Shown piece after piece: positions 28,035-64,000 of a stretch of DNA of 64,000 bases. The DNA lies in NCBI GenBank assembly GCA_037783415.1, contig JAZGTN010000025.1:2356001-2420000 (forward strand), read 5' to 3'. Each line of letters starts with the position of its first letter. The first letter of the stretch is position 1. This stretch comes from Leptasterias polaris (taxonomy: Eukaryota > Echinodermata > Asteroidea > Forcipulatida > Asteriidae). The translations under genes were made by a program, and so were the position numbers. A model generated the notes under the pieces. It was not told the origin of the DNA. It made no database searches and saw only the letters and a program-made list of their open reading frames with translations.

Positions 28035-28345
28035 AAATAACAAACCACAAGGGAAACTGACTGGGTAAATTTTAAAGATTTTGGGTTGAACAAGGAAAAA
28101 TTGACTAGAGCGGGATTTGAACCAACGACCTCCAGATTGACGTGCCGGCGCTCTACCAACTGAGCTATCTAGCCCTATGTTGACGGTCTCCCTATTTTGT
28201 CAATATCCTTGTTCGGTGGGTGTCAGTCAGAAGCCATTCAACCGTAAACTGCCGTGTAGCCAAGGATCACACCCAAGTATACGATACAACCTGGGAAGCG
28301 GCAGCCAAGGGATCACCATAAGGGGATGCGACTTTTTTTATACAT
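28035..28345 (-). mobile_element. tRNA-derived SINE, type S
   Basis: The minus strand contains box A 'tagctcagttggtagagcgc' and box B 'ggttcaaatcc', then a tail 'tagtcaatttttccttgttc'. A 5' leader in front of the tRNA-like part includes 'tgatcccttggctgccgctt' on that strand. The acceptor stem does not pair fully, so it is not a functional tRNA. Other copies are at 28350-28525, 33305-33560, 50210-50480 and, partial, 58195-58330. Confidence 0.8.
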
Positions 28346-29184: not shown

Positions 29185-29364
29185 AAGATTTTCTATGCTA
29201 AGCGAATTTGAGCTAAAAGTTCATTGGTATCATTTTTCAGAAATATAATGTATTTAGTTTTGGAGTGTCTGAGAAATTCTTAGTATTGATAAAAATGTTC
29301 TTGTCATTGCAGGCCCCTGCGTGGATTACATCTGCCGCTCCTGCGGTTACCTGTTCTGCCAAAT
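29185..29364 (+). repeat. 180-bp duplication of intron 9 end and exon 10 start
   Basis: The segment repeats at 29365-29545 with an offset of exactly 180 at the acceptor. The intronic parts are almost identical ('tagtattgataaaaatgttc', then 'ttgtcattgcag' against 'ttgtcattacag'). Confidence 0.88.
29313..29360 (+). pseudogene. Decoy copy of the first part of exon 10
   Basis: After the duplicated acceptor the frame reads PCVDYICRSCGYLFCQIRF and then meets a stop within 24 codons (tgc-taa). The genuine exon 10 reads PSVDHIYRSSRLFTVTVVAF. No usable donor follows before the second acceptor. Using it would truncate the protein, so I treat it as a dead exon fragment or cryptic site. Confidence 0.75.
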
Positions 29365-29492
29365 AAGATTTTTTCTATGCTAAGCGAATTTGAGCTCACT
29401 TCATTGGTATTATTTTTCAGAATTGTATTGTATTTAGTTCTGGAGAATCTGAGAAATTCTTAGTATTGATAAAAATGTTCTTGTCATTACAG

Positions 29493-29784
29493 GCCCCTCT
29501 GTAGATCACATCTATCGATCCTCGCGTTTGTTCACAGTGACAGTTGTCGCCTTCAACCGAGTTCAAGCAAAACAAACCAACTGTAAGGTGTTTATTGAGA
29601 TCCAGATCCAGGGCGTGGAGCTCCTCGAAGTGGAGCAGCTTCACCAAACCTACTCCCAAATCACCTTTGAGGCGAAGACCATCACCGACAGTGCCCAGTG
29701 GTACCAGTGGGATATGGGCGATCAGAGAGACCCCAAGACAACATTTGTGAATACCCTGTCGTACTTGTACACACGCCACGGCAG
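29493..29784 (+). CDS. PKD1: Exon 10: PKD module
   Basis: 292 nt, phase 1 in, phase 2 out, after 'ttgtcattacag' and before 'gtaaga'. It closes the exon 9 module and encodes the next (YSQITFEAKTITDSAQWYQW, then DMGDQRDPKT, then LSYLYTRHGR). This second of the two duplicated acceptors was chosen because only it keeps the frame open. Confidence 0.93.
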
Positions 29785-31502: not shown

Positions 31503-32387
31503 GTATGTCTGCAAAGCCACCCCTCTGATTCTAGCTCTCTCTTCACTATTTATATAGAAACACAGAATAAAGATTCACAATACTGCATGATGCCAGGAGA
31601 CTGTTGACAACAGTTTTTTTGTCGGTCAACAATTCAAAGTTTTCTATTGAGACCTAGCCCAATAGCATGGCAAATGTCAAACTACCCTTGGTTGATTATT
31701 TGATGAAAAATAATTCCATCAATGGCCACCTTAACCAAGGGCTAATGTCCAAGGGCTAATGACCAAAGGCTAAAGTGGTAAGCATCAAAACTACGTTTTT
31801 TCAGTTGTGGGATTGTGAAAGTTAGTTATTCCTCTAACATGTTAAAAATTTCTTATTTTTTGTAGATTTTTAGCCCTAACTTCTTTAACGAAAGAAATGA
31901 AATAAATGAAATAAGTATAACCCCCTCACTTGCCAGTAACACCTTCACCAGTTACTTATTGCCTCCATGTTTTCCATTCAAAACGAGAGTCCTTTTATCA
32001 GTTACCTATTCCCTCCATATGTCCATCCAAAAGGAGAGCTCTTCACTGATTACTTATTCCCTCCACCTTTCCATCCAAAAGGAGAGCCCTTCACTAGTTA
32101 ATTTTTCCCTCCATGTTGTCGTCCAAAAGGAGAGCCCTTCTCCACATACTTATTCCCTCCACCTTTCCATCCAAAAAGAGAGCCATTCACAAGTTACTTA
32201 TTCACTCCATGTTGTCGTCCAAAAGGAGAGCCCTTCTCCACATACTTTTTACCTCTAATCTTTCCATCCAACAAAGAGAGCAATTCACCAGTTACTTTTT
32301 CCCTCCATGTTGTCGCCCAAAAGGAGAGCCCTTCACCAGTTGCTTATTCCCTCCATGTTTGTATCTCAAAAGGAGAGCCATTCCCAG
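31503..32387. other. Intron 12, ending in a minisatellite
   Basis: 31503-31930 has nothing recognised. From about 31940 to the exon 13 acceptor it is a 48-bp minisatellite. Confidence 0.75.
31940..32387 (+). repeat. 48-bp minisatellite abutting the exon 13 acceptor
   Basis: About nine copies of a unit containing 'ttattccctccat', 'tccaaaaggagagcc' and 'ttcaccagttac'. The last copy continues directly into the acceptor 'attcccag' of exon 13. Because 48 is a multiple of three, the frame stays open for long stretches (31959-32255 and 32259 onward), which produces spurious ORFs. Confidence 0.9.
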
Positions 32388-32579
32388 GACATTCGTGTCG
32401 AGGCAGAGGTTCAAATAGACTGTGAGGTCACCAACCTGGCTCTATACACCTGGACGCTTCAACATGCAGAAAACGGCAGCTTCGTTCGCCTCGATCCTAA
32501 CAGGGCATCCTTGGATCAGCGCACCCTCTTCATACCCAGACTTCACCTTCCATATGGATCATACATTTTCTCACTTGAT
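32388..32579 (+). CDS. PKD1: Exon 13: REJ module
   Basis: 64 codons, phase 0 at both ends, after 'attcccag' and before 'gtaagt'. The peptide has RVEAEVQIDCEVTNLALYTW, then TLFIPRLHLPYGSYIFSLD. This is the REJ pattern of a paired Cys, Y-x-W and 'L-x-I-P...L-x-x-G-x-Y-x-F'. Confidence 0.92.
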
Positions 32580-37826: not shown

Positions 37827-39107
37827 GTACTGTGACAAGTGGTACATCTACCCCGCAGAACAGCGTCAGCAATGCAATAAGTACAGGAATATTGACACCA
37901 GGTGGCACAGGAGAAGGCGTTGTTGATGGATCATCCCAGACAAATACTACATCATCTTTCAATGAAACCATCGTCGAGGGTAGCTACGGTGGCGTTGACC
38001 CTGGTGAGGGGGTAGGAAGCATCGAGGAAGGGAGTGTCTTTGAAAGTGTTAACAGTTTTGTCGAAGAGACGGGAGATAGTTTGACTGAAGATGTACTAAG
38101 TGGGACCCCAGATGCAGCTCAGGAGAGTTTGGTAACTGTTACCATGGTAGCAGAAGCAGGTGTTAGCTTTGAAGAAGCCGGAGACAGTTTAGCGGAAACT
38201 GGAGACAGCTTTGAAGAAACAGGAGGAGGAAGCATAGTGGAAACTGGCGATAGCTTCGAAGAAGCAGTTTTGAGCTTCGAAGAAGCTGCAGGAAGTTTTG
38301 AAGAAGCAGTGGGTAGCTTTGAAGAAGCCACTGGAAGCATTGGAGAAACAACAGGTAGCATTGGAGAAACAACAGGTTGCATTGGAGAAACAACAGGTAG
38401 CTTTGAAGAAGCTGCAGGAAGTTTTAAAGAAGCAGTGGGTAACTTTGAAGAAGCCACTGGAAGCATTGGAGAAACAACAGGTAGCATTGGAGAAACAACA
38501 GGTAGCTTGGGTGAAGCTACTGGCAGCTTTGATGAAGCAGCGGCCAGCAGGGATGCAGCAAATACTAGTCAAGGAGCAACAACTCAAACAGGAACCAGCT
38601 TTGAAGAAGCAACAGGCAGTGTGGAGGAAACTGGTCAAACTACAGGTAGCCTTGCTGAAGCTGAAAACAGCTTTGAAGAGGCAGCTGGAAGTTTTGAAGA
38701 AGACACTCCTGGGTCAGCTGCCTCTAATGAGACCCAGGGAAGTGTAGCGGAAGATACTGGAGCTTCCCTCATGGAAGACACTGGAACTTCCATAGTGGAG
38801 GACACTGGAACTTCCATCTTGGAAGACACTGAAGCTTCCATCGTTGAAGACACTGGAGCTTCAATCGTGGAAGACACTGTAACTTCCCTCACGGAAGTTT
38901 CAAATAATCCCCAAAGTAACCAAGATACAAATGTTGACACTACCTATGAGGAAGCTCTGGACTCCAACACCGATGAATCTGTTCAAGACGCAGAAGTGGA
39001 CCAACCTAGTCACAATGCCAGCCAAGGAGTTGGTGTAGGCGGTGGAACAAAAACTGAGGAATACAGCCAAGATTATTATGGAGACGACTACCCGGGGGAA
39101 TATTTAA
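37827..39107 (+). CDS. PKD1: Exon 18: acidic Ser/Thr/Glu-rich repeat insert in REJ
   Basis: 1,281 nt, phase 1 at both ends, between 'gttcttag' and 'gtaagc'. It encodes about 427 residues of low complexity. The centre has seven-residue units of the type GSFEEAV, GSFEEAT and GSIGETT, with a 126-nt higher-order repeat (38273 and 38399). Nearer the end come eight-residue units of the type EDTGTSIV (about 38745-38890). The end is acidic and Tyr-rich (EEYSQDYYGDDYPGEY). Lys and Arg are almost absent. I know of no such insert in vertebrate polycystin-1; it probably forms an extended, glycosylated loop (inference). Long reverse-strand ORFs here are by-products of the repeat. Confidence 0.9.
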
Positions 39108-43511: not shown

Positions 43512-44080
43512 GTAGGTTGAGTTGTAGCTAACAAACAAATAGACAGAAGGAAGAACTGATTAACCCTAGAGATTGGCTCCATTTCACACAAGATTATTAC
43601 CTAGTGAGGTTTGTAGAGATACCATGTACCTAAAACTCTCTGTGAGTTGTGTTGGTTTTGAAAAGAATCATTGTTTAGCAACTCTACCTTTTGATTGACA
43701 TGCTCTGATAGCCTTCAGGAGAATACTGTTGCTGTATGCTGCTTAACTCATGCCAACAGTGTTTGTACGCTTGCGTGGATGTAATTAACATATTTCTTAG
43801 GAAAGGCTAAATAAGAAATTTGTGATTAAAAATAATTTTGATTAAAAATGGTTACCAGGAATAGATTTGCTGCTATGTTTACTCTCATTCACAAATTATT
43901 GTCTGAGTGTTGATCAAACTTCCCAACTTTATTTTCTATTTTGCGTATTAAATTGGCCCTGCCTAGGATGACACTTGCTTGAAACACCTCCTACAGGGCT
44001 TCCTGAGTACTTTATATTAGTTTGAATATACAGTCATCATTTTTCTTCATTTAAAACATCAATGTTTTCATAATGTGAAG
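43512..44080. other. Intron 22, nothing recognised
   Basis: 569 bp, AT-rich; acceptor 'ataatgtgaag' has a weak polypyrimidine tract. Confidence 0.6.
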
Positions 44081-57907: not shown

Positions 57908-58059
57908 GATGTTATGACCTTTGACTTGACCTTTGATAGATCCGACATGAATATTCACGAGTTCAATGTGTCTGAGGAGAACATGGGACAGACGTTCCAG
58001 ATCATGGTGCAGATGAGACGGGAGGCGAAGCGAGTGTTCCCAGTCAAACTCATATTGAG
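57908..58059 (+). CDS. PKD1: Exon 29: GAIN subdomain B
   Basis: 152 nt, phase 0 in, phase 2 out, between 'ttgatacag' and 'gtttgt'. It encodes DVMTFDLTFDRSDMNIHEFN and then QTFQIMVQMRREAKRVFPVK. The donor 'gtttgt' is weaker than average, but the frame with exon 30 supports it. Confidence 0.9.
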
Positions 58060-58362: not shown

Positions 58363-58463
58363 ATTTGGTACAAGACCGACGCCCACCCTCTATGACACAT
58401 CCTGGTCGTATAAAGAAATGACAGAAGATCTGATCATATTCCTGCCTCCATATACATTCAATG
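58363..58463 (+). CDS. PKD1: Exon 30: GAIN subdomain B
   Basis: 101 nt, phase 2 in, phase 1 out, between 'tttacttacag' and 'gtaagt'. It encodes FGTRPTPTLYDTSWSYKEMT and then EDLIIFLPPYTFNG. Exon 31 continues with ESGIYYLALID. The 'FLPP...G-x-Y-Y-x-A/G' step is the usual run-up to the GPS. Confidence 0.93.
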
Positions 58464-58969
58464 GTAAGTCATCTCTTGCACATCATGATAACGAGAACTG
58501 TTTTTCCTAGGGCTGCATTGACCCAGAATTCCTTAGATTATAGCTTAAAAGGAGGGTATGCCTTTGGTAATTACTCTAAAAATTAATTAATAAAATAAAG
58601 AAAAGGAACTTCTCATTAATTATAAATGTCACATCCCCATCGGAATGGCAGGAGATTTTTCCCGTATGGTAGCGCCCTCTGTTGAACAAACTCCCTTTAG
58701 CCCTGTGGTAGCGCCCTCTGTTGGTCACCTGTAAACTCCCTTCAACCCCTTGTGACACACGGGAGAAAGAATCTCCTGAAAACGCCGCTGAACGGTAGGT
58801 TGGTTTCAGTTTAAAATGAACTTTTCTACATGTCTCTACATGTTTCAAGCACATGTGATTTCTATTTATTCACATATTGATTAGCGTGGTACTTTTAGGG
58901 TAACAAAATGACCCCTTTTTGGCGATGTACCGATACGGTCTGCTGTTTGCAGTCAAAGGTGCATGTAAG

Positions 58970-59092
58970 ATCATGCGCCTTGTGCGGCGGTGCGGCGGTG
59001 CGCCTTGTCTGTTGACGCTTGAATTTTTGGGGGTAATTTCACGGCCCTGCGCCTTGTACGCCCCGCGTCTTATCAGCAAGAAATTACGGTAC
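58970..59092. mobile_element. Family-E transposon fragment (right end)
   Basis: Ends 'cgcgtcttatcagcaagaaa' then 'ttacggtacc', like the right ends of 11664-13162 and 15617-16514. The left end is not recognisable. Confidence 0.6.
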
Positions 59093-59580
59093 CCAAAAAA
59101 CTTACTCGGTACGAAGCACTGCAGCTGTTGATAATGTTTTGAGGAACAATGTGGTTTTAGAGAGAGGGATTCAAAAACATTTTAATCGGTGAAAAGTTTC
59201 TCCATAAGTGTTTCTGAGATAATGTATTCCAATTGCGGATTATTCTTCCTGCGTGGACATAACCACTCCAGATTTTTGGTCCTATCTCATAAACACTACC
59301 ACATTTTGAAATTATATTTTCACATGTTAGTTTTAATGTATATATCTACATTTATATAGGATTAAAACAATTGAACGGTTCGAAAAAAACAAAGGTATAC
59401 TTTGCCTTGAAAAAGCTATTTAAGCAAGGAATAATAATAATAACAATAAGTGTGTTTATAAAGCGCTTCTAAATGAGCGATCAAAGCGCTGTGTATAAGA
59501 ATAGGAAAGTTACTTGGGTGTTAAGGAGAAGTGTCAATGGGTTTCTTGACTCTTGTGAGAGATGGGGGCATCCTTGATAA

Positions 59581-60946
59581 TGATTTATTTATTTATTTAT
59601 TACATTTCTTTACCCAGGGTATGCCCAAACAGTTAAAACTGGTTTCCATTGGGGCCCTGCATACATTACAACATACAGCATAATTACAAATACGGTAAAT
59701 TAAAAGCACATCGAAATATTACATTATAAAACTTGTACACGTATAACTATTACTCAGGTAAAATGAACTCAGAAAAAGTGTATAGGGTGAATATACAATT
59801 TTGAAATCTAAAATTCGCTGATTATGGGAGGGGCAAAAAACCCGCAAAAACTCTTTTAGAGAAACACGGGGAAATTCCCCTCCGGTTCCTAATATTTATG
59901 GCAACCAAGTTTGTCTACTCCGTAGATCAGCACAGATTAGATCTCATAAATGGAAATGCTGACATATTTGCAGGAATATTATTATTATTCTTATTATTTT
60001 CTGCTAATGAAACCAAGGATCCCTCACGGAATCAGGCAGGGACTGAATATTACGGACTAATGAACGTTTGACGAAGTTCAGATTTGAATGAGGTTAGAGA
60101 AGTCGTGGTTCTCAATTGAACATGCAAGTTATTCCATAAAATTGTACCAGTTACAGCAAAGCTTGTGGCAAAACATTCTTTTTTCGCAAAGGGAATCTTA
60201 AGCTTCATGTCAGCGGATTGTCTCGTTTCACGAATCTGCGTTTGTGGTGTGAATATATTTGTCATATACAAAGGAGTGGTTTTATTTATACATTTGTGAA
60301 CAAGAATAGCCTTTTTATACTCGACTCTCTCAATAAACGAAATCCAATTAAGTCTAGTAAACATATCGGCTGAGGGAGTTAAGAAGGCACACTTAAGGAT
60401 TATCCGCGCGGCTCTTTTAAGACATTTGTTGAGAATATTGTTGTGAGACATGTACCGTCCTCCCCATACAGTAATACAATAGTCTAACGAAGGCAAGACT
60501 AAGCTAACAAACAGAGAGTGCAAGCTGCTTTGTGGAACACAGTCGCGGATTCTATGTAGCATACTTAGTTTAGAGGAAACAGTTTTCTTTACGTATTCAA
60601 CGTGGGGTCCCCATCTTAAAGTGTCATCAATAATAACACCTAAACATTTACAAGAGTTCACCTTCAAGATCGGGTTACCAGCGATACTGACATCAAGGTC
60701 AGTACTGCAAACGTTTTGCTTAGTTCCAATAAGCATGGCTTTTGTTTTGTTGGCGTTTATTGTTAGTTTGTTTCTGGTACACCAGTCGTAAATTCGACCT
60801 AGGGCTATATTCAAGTTGTTTTCTATCTCATTAATATTGGTGGAACTACATGTTAATGTCGAGTCATCGGCATACATAAACAAATTACATGATGTAAAAG
60901 TGTTCAAAAGTTTTTGGCCAGCTATTGAACAAAATTCTATCAACTA
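59581..60946 (-). mobile_element. 5'-truncated non-LTR retrotransposon (reverse transcriptase C-terminal half)
   Basis: The minus-strand ORF (297 codons, 60943 to 60050) begins just before the catalytic motif FMYADDS. It continues with WCTRNKLTINANKTKAML and KCLGVIIDDTLRWGPHVEYV, then LVLPSLDYCITVWGG, and ends GTILWNNLHVQLRTTTSLTS with FKSELRQTF. This is a CR1/jockey-type RT thumb and C-terminus. The 3' side runs to a (TTTA)n tail at 59584-59600 (as read on +). A stop lies directly upstream of the ORF and no endonuclease is present, so it is a dead 5'-truncated copy. The intact ORF suggests fairly recent insertion. Confidence 0.9.
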
Positions 60947-60970
60947 AGATTTACCATGAGGTGAATACAC

Positions 60971-61125
60971 CGATCCATTAAGCCACGCCCATTTCTCATT
61001 GACCAATCACACCCTCGAAATCTGATCACCATTTGAGCCGTTTGGTGATCTTTGCACTAATGGTGATCGGGTTTCGCGGCTGTGATTGGTCAACTCGTAA
61101 GGAGGCGGGGCTTAATGGATCGATC
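60971..61125. mobile_element. Palindromic MITE, family D (reverse copy)
   Basis: 'cgatccattaagccacgccc' at the left and 'aggcggggcttaatggatcg' at the right. The interior matches the reverse complement of 35878-36032 with few differences ('ggtgatctttgcactaatgg'). Confidence 0.9.
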
Positions 61126-61217
61126 TATTGGGTCACTGCTTTGCCTTAAACTTAATTCTAAATAATTGGTGCTGGTATGAACTTCATCAATCGGAAAGCT
61201 CTCAGATTGAAACTTAT

Positions 61218-61805
61218 TTTCTTGATGATTTCTCAATTCTTTGTTCTTAAACTTCCTTACTTTTCAGAGAGTGGCATTTACTACCTAGCACTCATAGATG
61301 CTTTCTTGATGATTTCTCAATTCTTTGTTCTTAAACTTCCTTACTTTTCAGAGAGTGGCATTTACTACCTAGCACTCATAGATGCTTTCTTGATGATTTC
61401 TCAATTCTTTGTTCTTAAACTTTCTTACTTTTCAGAGAGTGGCATTTACTACCTAGCACTCATAGATGCTTTCTTGATGATTTCTCAATTCTTTGTTCTT
61501 AAACTTCCTTACTTTTCAGAGAGTGGCATTTACTACCTAGCACTCATAGATGCTTTCTTGATGATTTCTCAATTCTTTGTTCTTAAACTTTCTTACTTTT
61601 CAGAGAGTGGCATTTACTACCTAGCACTCATAGATGCTTTCTTGATGATTTCTCAATTCTTTGTTCTTAAACTTCCTTACTTTTCAGAGAGTGGCATTTA
61701 CTACCTAGCACTCATAGATGCTTTCTTGATGATTTCTCAATTCTTTGTTCTTAAACTTCCTTACTTTTCAGAGAGTGGCATTTACTACCTAGCACTCATA
61801 GATGC
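61218..61805 (+). repeat. PKD1: Seven tandem copies of the exon 31 acceptor (84 bp each)
   Basis: Each unit is 50 nt of intron end ('tttcttgatgatttctcaat'...'cttacttttcag') plus 34 nt of exon start ('agagtggcatttactaccta'...'gatgc'). Length 588 is exactly 7 x 84. The only variation I see is CCT or TCT just before the tract (P-P-S-P-S-P-P in translation). Acceptor AGs end at 61267, 61351, 61435, 61519, 61603, 61687 and 61771. The array is open in the frame of exon 31. The long ORF 61177-61914 arises from this and is not a separate gene. Confidence 0.97.
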
Positions 61806-61906
61806 AGACTATGGTGACAGTACCTACAGGCTGGATGAGGTCAATCAGAGGAACTACTTGATCAGATTGTGGTGGGGGGAATGTCTTTACTGGGATACTG
61901 AAACAG
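61772..61906 (+). CDS. PKD1: Exon 31: GAIN domain, last strands (minimal form)
   Basis: Using the last of seven identical acceptors: 135 nt, phase 1 at both ends, donor 'gtcagt'. It encodes ESGIYYLALIDADYGDSTYR, then YLIRLWWGECLYWDTETG. The six upstream acceptors (exon starts 61268, 61352, 61436, 61520, 61604, 61688) give in-frame longer versions of 219 to 639 nt. I take the shortest as the ancestral exon because it joins exon 30 with no hydrophobic insert; which acceptor is really used cannot be read from DNA. Confidence 0.88.
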
Positions 61907-62228
61907 GTCAGTAAACCCTAGATCCTTATAACGGTAGCCACTGCTCGACCTGGGCCCAATGTCATAGAGCTGCTTAACGGCCGTTTATGTGCTTGCTGTC
62001 GAGTTTCTATTTCATAGCGCTGCTAACCTTAAGCACAGGAAAAGGCATGCTAAACTTTCCGGTGCTTACTGTATGAAAAAGAATGATATTGTGAGCGTGC
62101 AAGCTGGCCACCTAATGTAACTGGTATTCTGCTCATTTTTGCTTTTAATAGCCAAAAATTGTTAAACAATAAGCTTTAAATGCAGCTTTATGAACTTGAG
62201 GCCTGGGCCCAATTTTATGGAGCTGCTT

Positions 62229-62569
62229 AAAGGCACTGTACACGTTTGGTAATTACACAAAATATATACTAGCATAAAAACTTACTTGGTAACAAGCAAT
62301 GAAGAGCTGTTGATAGTATAAAACATTGTGAGAAACGACTCCCTCTGAAGTAACGTAGTTTTTGAGAAAGAGGTAATTTCTCAATAAAATATTAAAAGAC
62401 TTCAGGCCTGAAGCCTTTTATTGGCATCTGAAAGCACACAAATTTGTGCAACAAGGGTGTTTTTTCTTTCATTATTTTCTTGCAACTTCGATGACCAATT
62501 CAGCCCAAATTTTCACAGGTTTGTTATTTTATGCATATGTTGGGATACACCAAGTGACAATAGCAGAAG
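62229..62569 (-). mobile_element. Family-A MITE, inverted copy
   Basis: Begins 'aaaggcactgtacacgtttg' and reads 'acttacttggtaacaagcaa', the reverse complement of family A. It stops at 'ggatacaccaagtgaca' without the second terminus, so it is truncated. Confidence 0.85.
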
Positions 62570-62604
62570 TTTAAGCAGAAAATATTGCTTAAAAACTTTC
62601 TGTT

Positions 62605-62978
62605 AAAGGCACTGAACACGTTTGGTAATTGTCAAAGACCAGTATTCTTACTTGGTGTATCCCAACATATGCATAAAATAACAAGCCTGTGAAAATTTGG
62701 ACTCAATTGGTCATTGAAGTTGCAAGAAAATGATGAAAGAAAAAACACCCTTGTTGTACAAATTAGTGTGCTTTCAGATAGGAATAAAAGGCTTCTGGCC
62801 AGAAGTCTTTTATTATTTTAGTGAGAAATTACCTATTTCTCAAAAACTACGTTACTTCAGAGGGAGTCGTTTCTCACAATGTTTTATACTATCAACAGCT
62901 CTCCGTTGCTCGTTACCAAGTAAGTTTTTATGCTAATATATATTTTGAGTAATTACCAAACGTGTACAGTGCCTTTAA
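62605..62978 (+). mobile_element. Family-A MITE, complete copy with TTAA ends
   Basis: Preceded by 'ctgtt' so that the left junction is TTAAAGGCACTG, and ending CAGTGCCTTTAA. This is the clearest case of matching TTAA at both ends. Confidence 0.88.
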
Positions 62979-63176
62979 GCAACAATTTGCAGGATACTGT
63001 GCGCAAATGGCACACGTGACATGGTCTTTTGGCTTGTAACCTCATTCTGGTAAGCATAGTTTTCTTGTGCTTAGCTAATTTGTGTGCTTAAGTAGCTCTA
63101 TGGGCCAAGGTATATATCTCACAAGCCTCAAAGTGTAATGTCAGAAGTTCAGGCTAACCTTTTTCTCTTCTTGTAG

Positions 63177-63324
63177 ATTCTTGGGTGAACAACGGCTGTG
63201 AGGTGATGGAGTCCTCTACCTATCAGCAAACTCGGTGTAGATGTAACCATCTGACGTCCTTTGGAGTGAGCTTTCTGCCCGTCTCCATTCTCTTAGATAT
63301 CGTTAGCTTAAAGGTTTTTGAAAT
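63177..63324 (+). CDS. PKD1: Exon 32: GPS motif
   Basis: 148 nt, phase 1 in, phase 2 out, between 'ttcttgtag' and 'gtaagt'. It encodes DSWVNNGCEVMESSTYQQTR and then CRCNHLTSFGVSFLPVSILL. The W, four-Cys pattern and HLT define the GPS. Family knowledge places cleavage between L and T, leaving TSFGVSFL as the new N-terminus of the membrane fragment. The first membrane helix should begin in the next exons, beyond the window. Confidence 0.97.
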
Positions 63325-64000
63325 GTAAGTGTTGTTTCAGCATTGATTTTCCATCAAATAAAGAATAGTAAACAGTATGGGAAACTACAAGTAAATATAA
63401 ACAAACAATAAAACATACAAGGGTTTGGGGTATAATATTGAGAGCAGGTTTGCTGGAATTATGTCAGACTTATTTGCTAGGTATTAAGTTAACCTTATTG
63501 ATACTGGTGTACTCTCCTGCTCAACTGGCTCTTTCCACAAAATACCATAGGAGATTGTGGAGACCAAGTCCACAGTACACAAACCATGGGGTTTCAACAT
63601 GATACCAGCTGTACAAACAGAAGAAACCCATGCACTTAATGCTAGCCTTTAAGGAATGGTACTTTGTGGCAGTCTGTGGTACCAGTGCTAGCTGTACAAA
63701 CAGAAGAAACCCATGCACCCAATGCTAGCCTGGAAGGTATGTTACACTGAAGCAGTCTGTGGTACGAGTGCTAGCTGTACAAACAGAAGAAACCCATGCA
63801 CCCAATGCTAGCCTGGAAGGTCTGGTACTTTGTGGCAGTCTGTGGTGCCAGTGCTAGCTGTGCAAACAGAAGAAACCCATGCACCCAATGCTAGCCTGGA
63901 AGGTGTGGTACTTTGTGGCAGTCTGTGGTACCAGTGCTAGCTGTACAAACAGAAGAAAACATGCACCAAGGCTAGCCTGGAAGATATGTTACACTGAAGC
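63325..64000. other. Intron 32 (start), minisatellite-filled
   Basis: 63325-63575 is plain AT-rich intron. The rest is the 83-bp minisatellite, which continues past the window edge. Confidence 0.75.
63576..64000. repeat. 83-bp minisatellite running off the window
   Basis: Unit starts 'cagtctgtggtaccagtgct' at 63670, 63753, 63836 and 63919, exactly 83 bp apart, with an earlier degenerate copy before 63670. Landmarks: 'agctgtacaaacagaagaaa' and 'cccatgcacccaatgctagc'. Two variants alternate ('ggtactttgtgg' and 'gttacactgaag'). Confidence 0.93.

Follow-up and report, generated by a model that had tools for sequence, protein, structure and literature searches.

A probable 'mirage' minisatellite with seven matching acceptors in a starfish PKD1-family gene

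Tandem duplications that take in both the end of an intron and the beginning of the exon that follows have been described in lancelets, where they were named mirages (PMC3087553). The amphioxus genes reported to carry them are Adh3, the globins BflGb6 and BflGb9, TnC and PGBD5 (PMC3087553, PMC3902484), PGBD5 having been added, and TnC cited, by the second of these reports. In BflGb6 the 3' end of an intron and the 5' part of exon 2 are repeated together, with six and three units in two haplotypes; the inner copies are homogenised while the edge copies are excluded, and RT-PCR suggests that splicing is regular, with somatic instability reported for the mirage of Adh3 (PMC3087553).

The array described here, from a polycystin gene of the starfish Leptasterias polaris, shares with these systems a repeat of minisatellite size that lies across an intron-exon border and carries splice signals in its units: in seven of seven, whereas amphioxus mirages hold such signals in many but not all of their repeats. 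It differs from them further in its polycystin host, in a unit of 84 nt that is a whole number of codons, and in the full-strength, in-frame acceptor that every copy contains. Splicing and length instability have been examined in amphioxus mirages, whereas the starfish array is known from the sequence of one assembly alone, and on that footing it fits the structural part of the mirage description. A sequence-only reading of this DNA had known of no polycystin with this arrangement; none was seen in the literature searched, but the arrangement as such is already familiar from the lancelet mirages. No report of an echinoderm mirage was found in the open-access literature, an absence that is weak evidence. 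With a starfish example beside the lancelet ones, minisatellites that span such boundaries may prove to be more widespread among deuterostomes.

Two other kinds of arrangement invite comparison. In the potato RdRp gene, a tandem duplication crossing an exon boundary gave rise to a new intron through a cryptic donor in its formerly exonic part; the starfish unit, by contrast, has no usable donor and is not expected to yield a new intron. Tandem acceptors, NAGNAG sites among them, likewise set competing acceptors before a single exon, and the starfish border, which reads tttcagAGAG, has further AGs 2 and 4 nt downstream. NAGNAG sites have one branch point in common and differ by 3 nt, whereas the starfish copies stand 84 nt apart, each with its own branch-point candidates and pyrimidine tract. 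As for the host, the REJ and PKD1-family proteins of the sea urchin, with their REJ, GPS and PLAT domains, transmembrane segments and PKD1 subfamily, are treated in PMC1934368, the main text of which contains no word beginning with 'splic' or 'isoform'; no description of a boundary array was seen in that paper.

The host gene and its seven-copy array

The window analysed is a stretch of 64,000 nucleotides, and positions are given on it unless the contig is named. Its concatenated exons match the Pfam models for REJ (E 2.3e-32) and GPS (E 1.5e-11), with PKD domains upstream in the gene, and these domains support the assignment to the polycystin family made from the letters alone. The best of seven protein matches among 3702 candidates is Asterias rubens LOC117299811 (88% over the GAIN-GPS region), followed by proteins of Patiria miniata and Acanthaster planci named PKD1-like 1; the gene is a starfish member of the PKD1 family and the orthologue of LOC117299811. 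A tblastn search with P0003 of A. rubens, a protein that has PF01477, PF20519 and PF08016 among its precomputed domains, recovered exon blocks in order for residues 1-4024 of 4634 across about 138 kb of the fetched contig, and from this ordered succession we infer an intact, working gene. The PLAT and multi-transmembrane channel region that follows the GPS is present by tblastn with P0003 only. The gene is located at one place in the 629.7 Mb assembly (contig C25, 6.33 Mb), and of the five matches returned by a protein search of the animal's own genome, four belong to this locus and the fifth, a weak one (32% identity), to contig C78. By tblastn another six exon blocks lie upstream, beginning some 26 kb ahead of the window, so the earlier label 'exon 30' counts only from the window edge. 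Exons of the gene have a median length of 173 nt in the 28 of 31 window exons used for statistics, and three of those 28 exceed 550 nt (560, 1279 and 1281).

The features around the array are collected in Table 1. The donor GT at 58464 scores 9.64, and the exon that the array precedes ends at a donor GT at 61907, beyond which lies an intron of 1270 nt. The predicted cleavage tripeptide H-L-T falls at 63248-63256, within CNHLTSFG in the spliced product, which aligns to the GPS of solved adhesion-GPCR chains; the position of the GPS exon bears out the earlier statement that the array junction comes shortly before the GPS.

Table 1. Coordinates of the array, its neighbouring exons and the older boundary duplications (window positions)
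Feature	Position	Strand	Basis
Tandem array, 7.0 x 84 nt, across intron-exon border	61218..61805	+	TRF and copy comparison
Exon before array, ending ...IFLPPYTFN, phase 1	58363..58463	+	tblastn with A. rubens P0003
Intron, 3308 nt with copy 7 (2804 nt with copy 1)	58464..61771	+	
Putative canonical exon of 135 nt (phase 1-1), beginning in copy 7	61772..61906	+	gapless homologue alignments
Possible alternative exon starts	61268, 61352, 61436, 61520, 61604, 61688	+	acceptor scores
Six extra units, coding if the first acceptor is used	61268..61771	+	acceptor scores, stop-free joined translations
Exon with GPS motif	63177..63324	+	Pfam GPS match in the frame of the exon, E 1.6e-10
Older boundary array, about nine 48-nt units	31942..32387	+	TRF; anchors, acceptor scores, frames
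Two-copy boundary duplication, 180 nt apart, of the acceptor of exon 29493	29220-29342 and 29400-29522	+	

Copy comparison confirms seven whole copies with AGs ending at 61267 + 84k, as originally reported, and the corresponding exon starts are 61268 + 84k. The copies run head to tail exactly 7.0 times, with a partial copy at neither end (TRF: period 84, 7.0 copies, 99% matches). Each unit joins the last 50 nt of the intron to the first 34 nt of the exon, the border having been placed by homologue alignments; its first 48 nt are 77% pyrimidine, and branch-point-like yUnA adenines stand, among others, 42, 32 and 17-18 nt upstream of the border. Only one reading frame of the unit is open, FLMISQFFVLKLPYFSESGIYYLALIDA. 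The sole variable site among the copies is unit position 38, which is T in copies 3 and 5 and C in copies 1, 2, 4, 6 and 7, so that both edge copies equal the consensus and the variants, at this one site, are internal. The mean pairwise difference of 0.57% per site supports the recent expansion or homogenisation that had been proposed. A search of the 629.7 Mb assembly, which skips very common words, did not find the unit elsewhere, nor was a second haplotype or any dispersed copy of the array found there; with the unit at one genomic place, nothing points to a satellite family or to an element dispersed through the genome. The array is more than chance and unusual in its state, being young, in frame and with all its signals intact, and its copy number is probably polymorphic, the likeness of its copies being compatible with length instability.

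Seven equal acceptors and their products

Seven near-identical acceptors before one exon amount to a natural competition experiment on 3' splice site choice, in which acceptor strength and the branch-point region are constant across the copies and position varies, together with the exon length that it implies. All seven score between 8.69 and 8.77 on an approximate metazoan matrix whose values, like those of all the splice-site matrices used, are meaningful only relatively, and they rank in the top 1.6-1.8% of the 3802 AGs in the window. The median over 28 acceptors of the gene, copy 7 counted, is 7.34, and ten of the 28 reach at least 8.69; these statistics cover 28 of the 31 window exons and leave out those at 44080, 52324 and 53352, the first two of which have no clear acceptor.

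There is no usable donor within the 84-nt unit, the best in-unit GT scoring -0.61, so only the choice of acceptor can vary; micro-exons between the copies were rejected on the same ground. When 57908-58059, 58363-58463, each version of the exon (135, 219, 303, 387, 471, 555 or 639 nt) and 63177-63324 are joined, all seven translations are free of stops, at 178 to 346 aa, and all seven keep the GPS. The seven acceptors are equal in strength, and the claim of the sequence-only reading that they lie in the same phase, stop-free and joinable downstream, is upheld. Use of the AG at +2 or +4 would shift the frame into stops in the joined translation, and skipping of the exon at 61772..61906 would keep the frame and lose the first part of the GPS.

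The unit is indeed in frame and without a stop, as that reading had it, but this is not remarkable: the last 48 nt of the intron are open in the frame of the exon in 15 of the gene's 27 introns, the array intron included. One period in three is a multiple of 3. The in-frame openness of the unit is therefore ordinary and no evidence of selection. Any use of the upstream acceptors would, the unit being in frame, make the cleavage domain of a polycystin variable in length.

Choice among the acceptors

The reading that we favour, with a probability of roughly four in five, is of a mirage minisatellite that arose recently across an intron-exon boundary of this PKD1-family gene, in which copy 7 is the original acceptor and the one normally used, with copies 1-6 as decoys. 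An 84-nt piece comprising branch-point candidates, pyrimidine tract, AG and the first 34 exonic bases would first have undergone a tandem duplication and later, probably through slippage or unequal exchange, have grown to seven copies. The original functional acceptor would be copy 7, which adjoins the rest of the exon, leaving copies 1-6 as decoys at the end of the intron. Since the unit is open and 28 codons long, a decoy used now and then would not truncate the protein but lengthen its GAIN domain by 28-residue inserts, six at most.

The copy-7 product runs from ...IFLPPYTFN directly into ESGIYYLALIDADYGDS..., and this zero-insert protein is gapless against A. rubens (87% of 178 aa), P. miniata (65%), A. 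planci (63%) and the hemichordate Ptychodera flava (43% of 173 aa), while the newt homologue has two residues missing at the junction. Five of the seven protein matches thus cover the junction, four of them gapless and the fifth without two residues, and the 28-residue insert is in none of the five; the comparison leaves out the crustacean match, which aligns only from just before the GPS, and protein P0002, which is not aligned there. Since the junction is gapless in three other starfish and a hemichordate, the alignments indicate copy 7 as the canonical acceptor and the zero-insert protein as ancestral. Most likely copy 7 is the one normally used, with copies 1-6 passed over for the most part. 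The start at 61772 was likewise picked by a dynamic-programming gene model, a choice that is not independent, as this exon belonged to the model's codon training set; the same model put two spurious exons inside the intron at 58464..61771.

Two older boundary duplications in the same gene, both of them decayed, offer what we regard as the best internal evidence for copy 7, by analogy with competitors that are not identical, unlike those of the 84-nt array. In the 48-nt array, the last unit provides the likely start of a REJ-region exon at 32373, with a weaker alternative at 32388; the former is drawn from the A. rubens alignment (...PRT followed by E-HS-DIR), and the array reaches the border with either start. 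An AG is kept in six of the nine units, the real acceptor included, and the five upstream acceptors, with scores of 2.5 to 5.57, mostly exceed the real one, which scores 3.16; reading on from these five leads to a stop in four cases and a frameshift in one. At the two-copy duplication the real acceptor scores 7.48 and the decoy, which would start the exon at 29313, scores 8.05; splicing to the decoy would lengthen the exon by 60 codons, with three in-frame stops among them. Because upstream acceptors would truncate or frameshift the product at both duplications, the acceptor nearest the body of the exon would have to prevail at both, if the gene works.

Published work on human genes points the same way. 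Where the flanking introns are long, the splice sites closest across the exon are preferred (Carranza and colleagues, PMC9225289); here introns of 3308 and 1270 nt flank exon versions of 135-639 nt, and by analogy this rule would lend copy 7 moderate support. It is moderate because the same paper reports an overall upstream preference among human 3' splice sites, reduced by long introns and without evident full reversal. The seven copies share the same signals, and early transcription of copy 1 could favour copy 1.

Among the alternatives, a regulated splicing ladder, in which several acceptors are used and 0-6 extra 28-residue blocks in the GAIN domain alter GPS cleavage or receptor assembly, strikes us as unlikely. 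It would suit seven equal acceptors above the gene's median strength, seven open products with the GPS intact and a unit whose want of a donor confines variation to the choice of acceptor; but openness of this kind is ordinary in the gene, the five homologues covering the junction have no insert, and the older 48-nt array has lost its frame. The insert would, moreover, repeat part of one conserved segment and add a hydrophobic stretch to it: the peptide of the unit is moderately hydrophobic (GRAVY 1.10), and the best 19-residue Kyte-Doolittle mean is 1.92 when exon start and unit are joined, against 0.86 at best in the native segment. In human PC1, the disease missense changes analysed in the GAIN domain and the adjacent REJ region impaired or disrupted cleavage (PMC4810088), so large inserts would probably be harmful. 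We expect that inclusion of the insert would harm the GAIN domain, and that such products are rare and probably uncleaved or misfolded. The earlier proposal that seven isoforms could be made, and could tune cleavage, finds no support in homologues that lack the insert at the junction and in older duplications whose upstream acceptors would ruin the product. Placing the insert on the solved GAIN fold was tried and abandoned, as the profile aligns only from the GPS on; among the solved GAIN chains listed, matches begin at profile positions 178-189, after the junction.

A variant of the ladder is slightly less probable again: individuals would differ in how many identical acceptors they carry, all in frame, and the hydrophobic 28-residue blocks thereby placed inside the GAIN domain, from 0 to n in number, would set how much of the polycystin is cleaved at its GPS. 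Near-identical tandem copies are a classic assembly problem, and we put at about the same low level the chance that the count of seven is an assembly error and that the animal has one or few copies. An amphioxus mirage was apparently misassembled in a draft genome (PMC3087553), and the single place in the present assembly offers no second haplotype for comparison. Against such an error, the C/T variant in copies 3 and 5 breaks the perfect identity of the copies, an array of 588 nt would be short relative to long reads, the contig measures 6.3 Mb, and the same gene holds longer arrays as well as an older one with diverged copies, so not every array of this kind is an artefact. Least probable of all is that copy 1, the most upstream, is mainly used and the normal protein carries six inserts, or 168 extra residues: it is transcribed first, competing human 3' splice sites favour the upstream site overall (PMC9225289) and the resulting exon of 639 nt would not be the longest of the gene, but it would far exceed the median exon and place a large insert in a conserved region, and at both of the older boundary duplications a working gene depends on the last acceptor.

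Other arrays and neighbouring features of the locus

Enrichment of arrays on splice borders was not shown in the 116-kb exon-mapped stretch, where two of five arrays span an acceptor against 1.4 expected (P 0.43) and three of five lie on or within 50 nt of one against 1.6 expected (P 0.17). Arrays were counted at a period of at least 25 and at least 2.5 copies, a filter that the coding repeats at 38165-38897 do not pass; two arrays that do, of 27 nt at -27256 and 95 nt at 104431, were excluded as lying outside the stretch, and the acceptor positions are in part approximate tblastn starts. At least four local copies were seen at 1 of 56 borders and at 44 of 2000 random positions, in an ungapped scan that misses the 48-nt array with its unit indels. 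The overlap of array and acceptor is sufficiently explained by the wealth of minisatellites in this stretch and by the more than 50 exon blocks mapped for the gene. A genome-wide census of a three-acceptor pattern (62 forward and 522 reverse matches, against 29 and 21 for controls) was set aside as uninformative without exon maps, most of the places listed being one 28-nt satellite. Intron gain by exon duplication was considered from the likeness of the translated intron end FLMISQFFVLKLPYFS to the end of the preceding exon DLIIFLPPYTFN and was rejected: 2201 of 5000 shuffles did at least as well, a different intron does better, and no likeness is seen at the DNA level.

Several further features lie close by. 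Just upstream of the 84-nt array, in the same intron, a reverse-transcriptase fragment (RVT_1, E 1.8e-8) occupies 60053-60943 on the minus strand, its frame open over 297 codons, and the next intron contains a large foldback at 62224-62981 with two 339-nt arms, 94% complementary and 80 nt apart. An 83-nt minisatellite of 23 copies and 1.9 kb begins at 63607, runs to the end of the window at 64000 and continues to 65508 in the contig, stopping about 44 nt before the next exon block (65552) without spanning the border. Two intronic arrays, at 673-1242 and at contig -9676 to -9306, both have a period of 130 nt. Five intronic hits to the Rfam tRNA model, at 28102, 28408, 41578, 41757 and 50024, are possibly tRNA-derived SINEs. 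The large exon at 37827-39107 contains in-frame coding repeats of 21 and 24 nt (SFEEATG-like), which differ in make-up in A. rubens and are likely to be variable in length.
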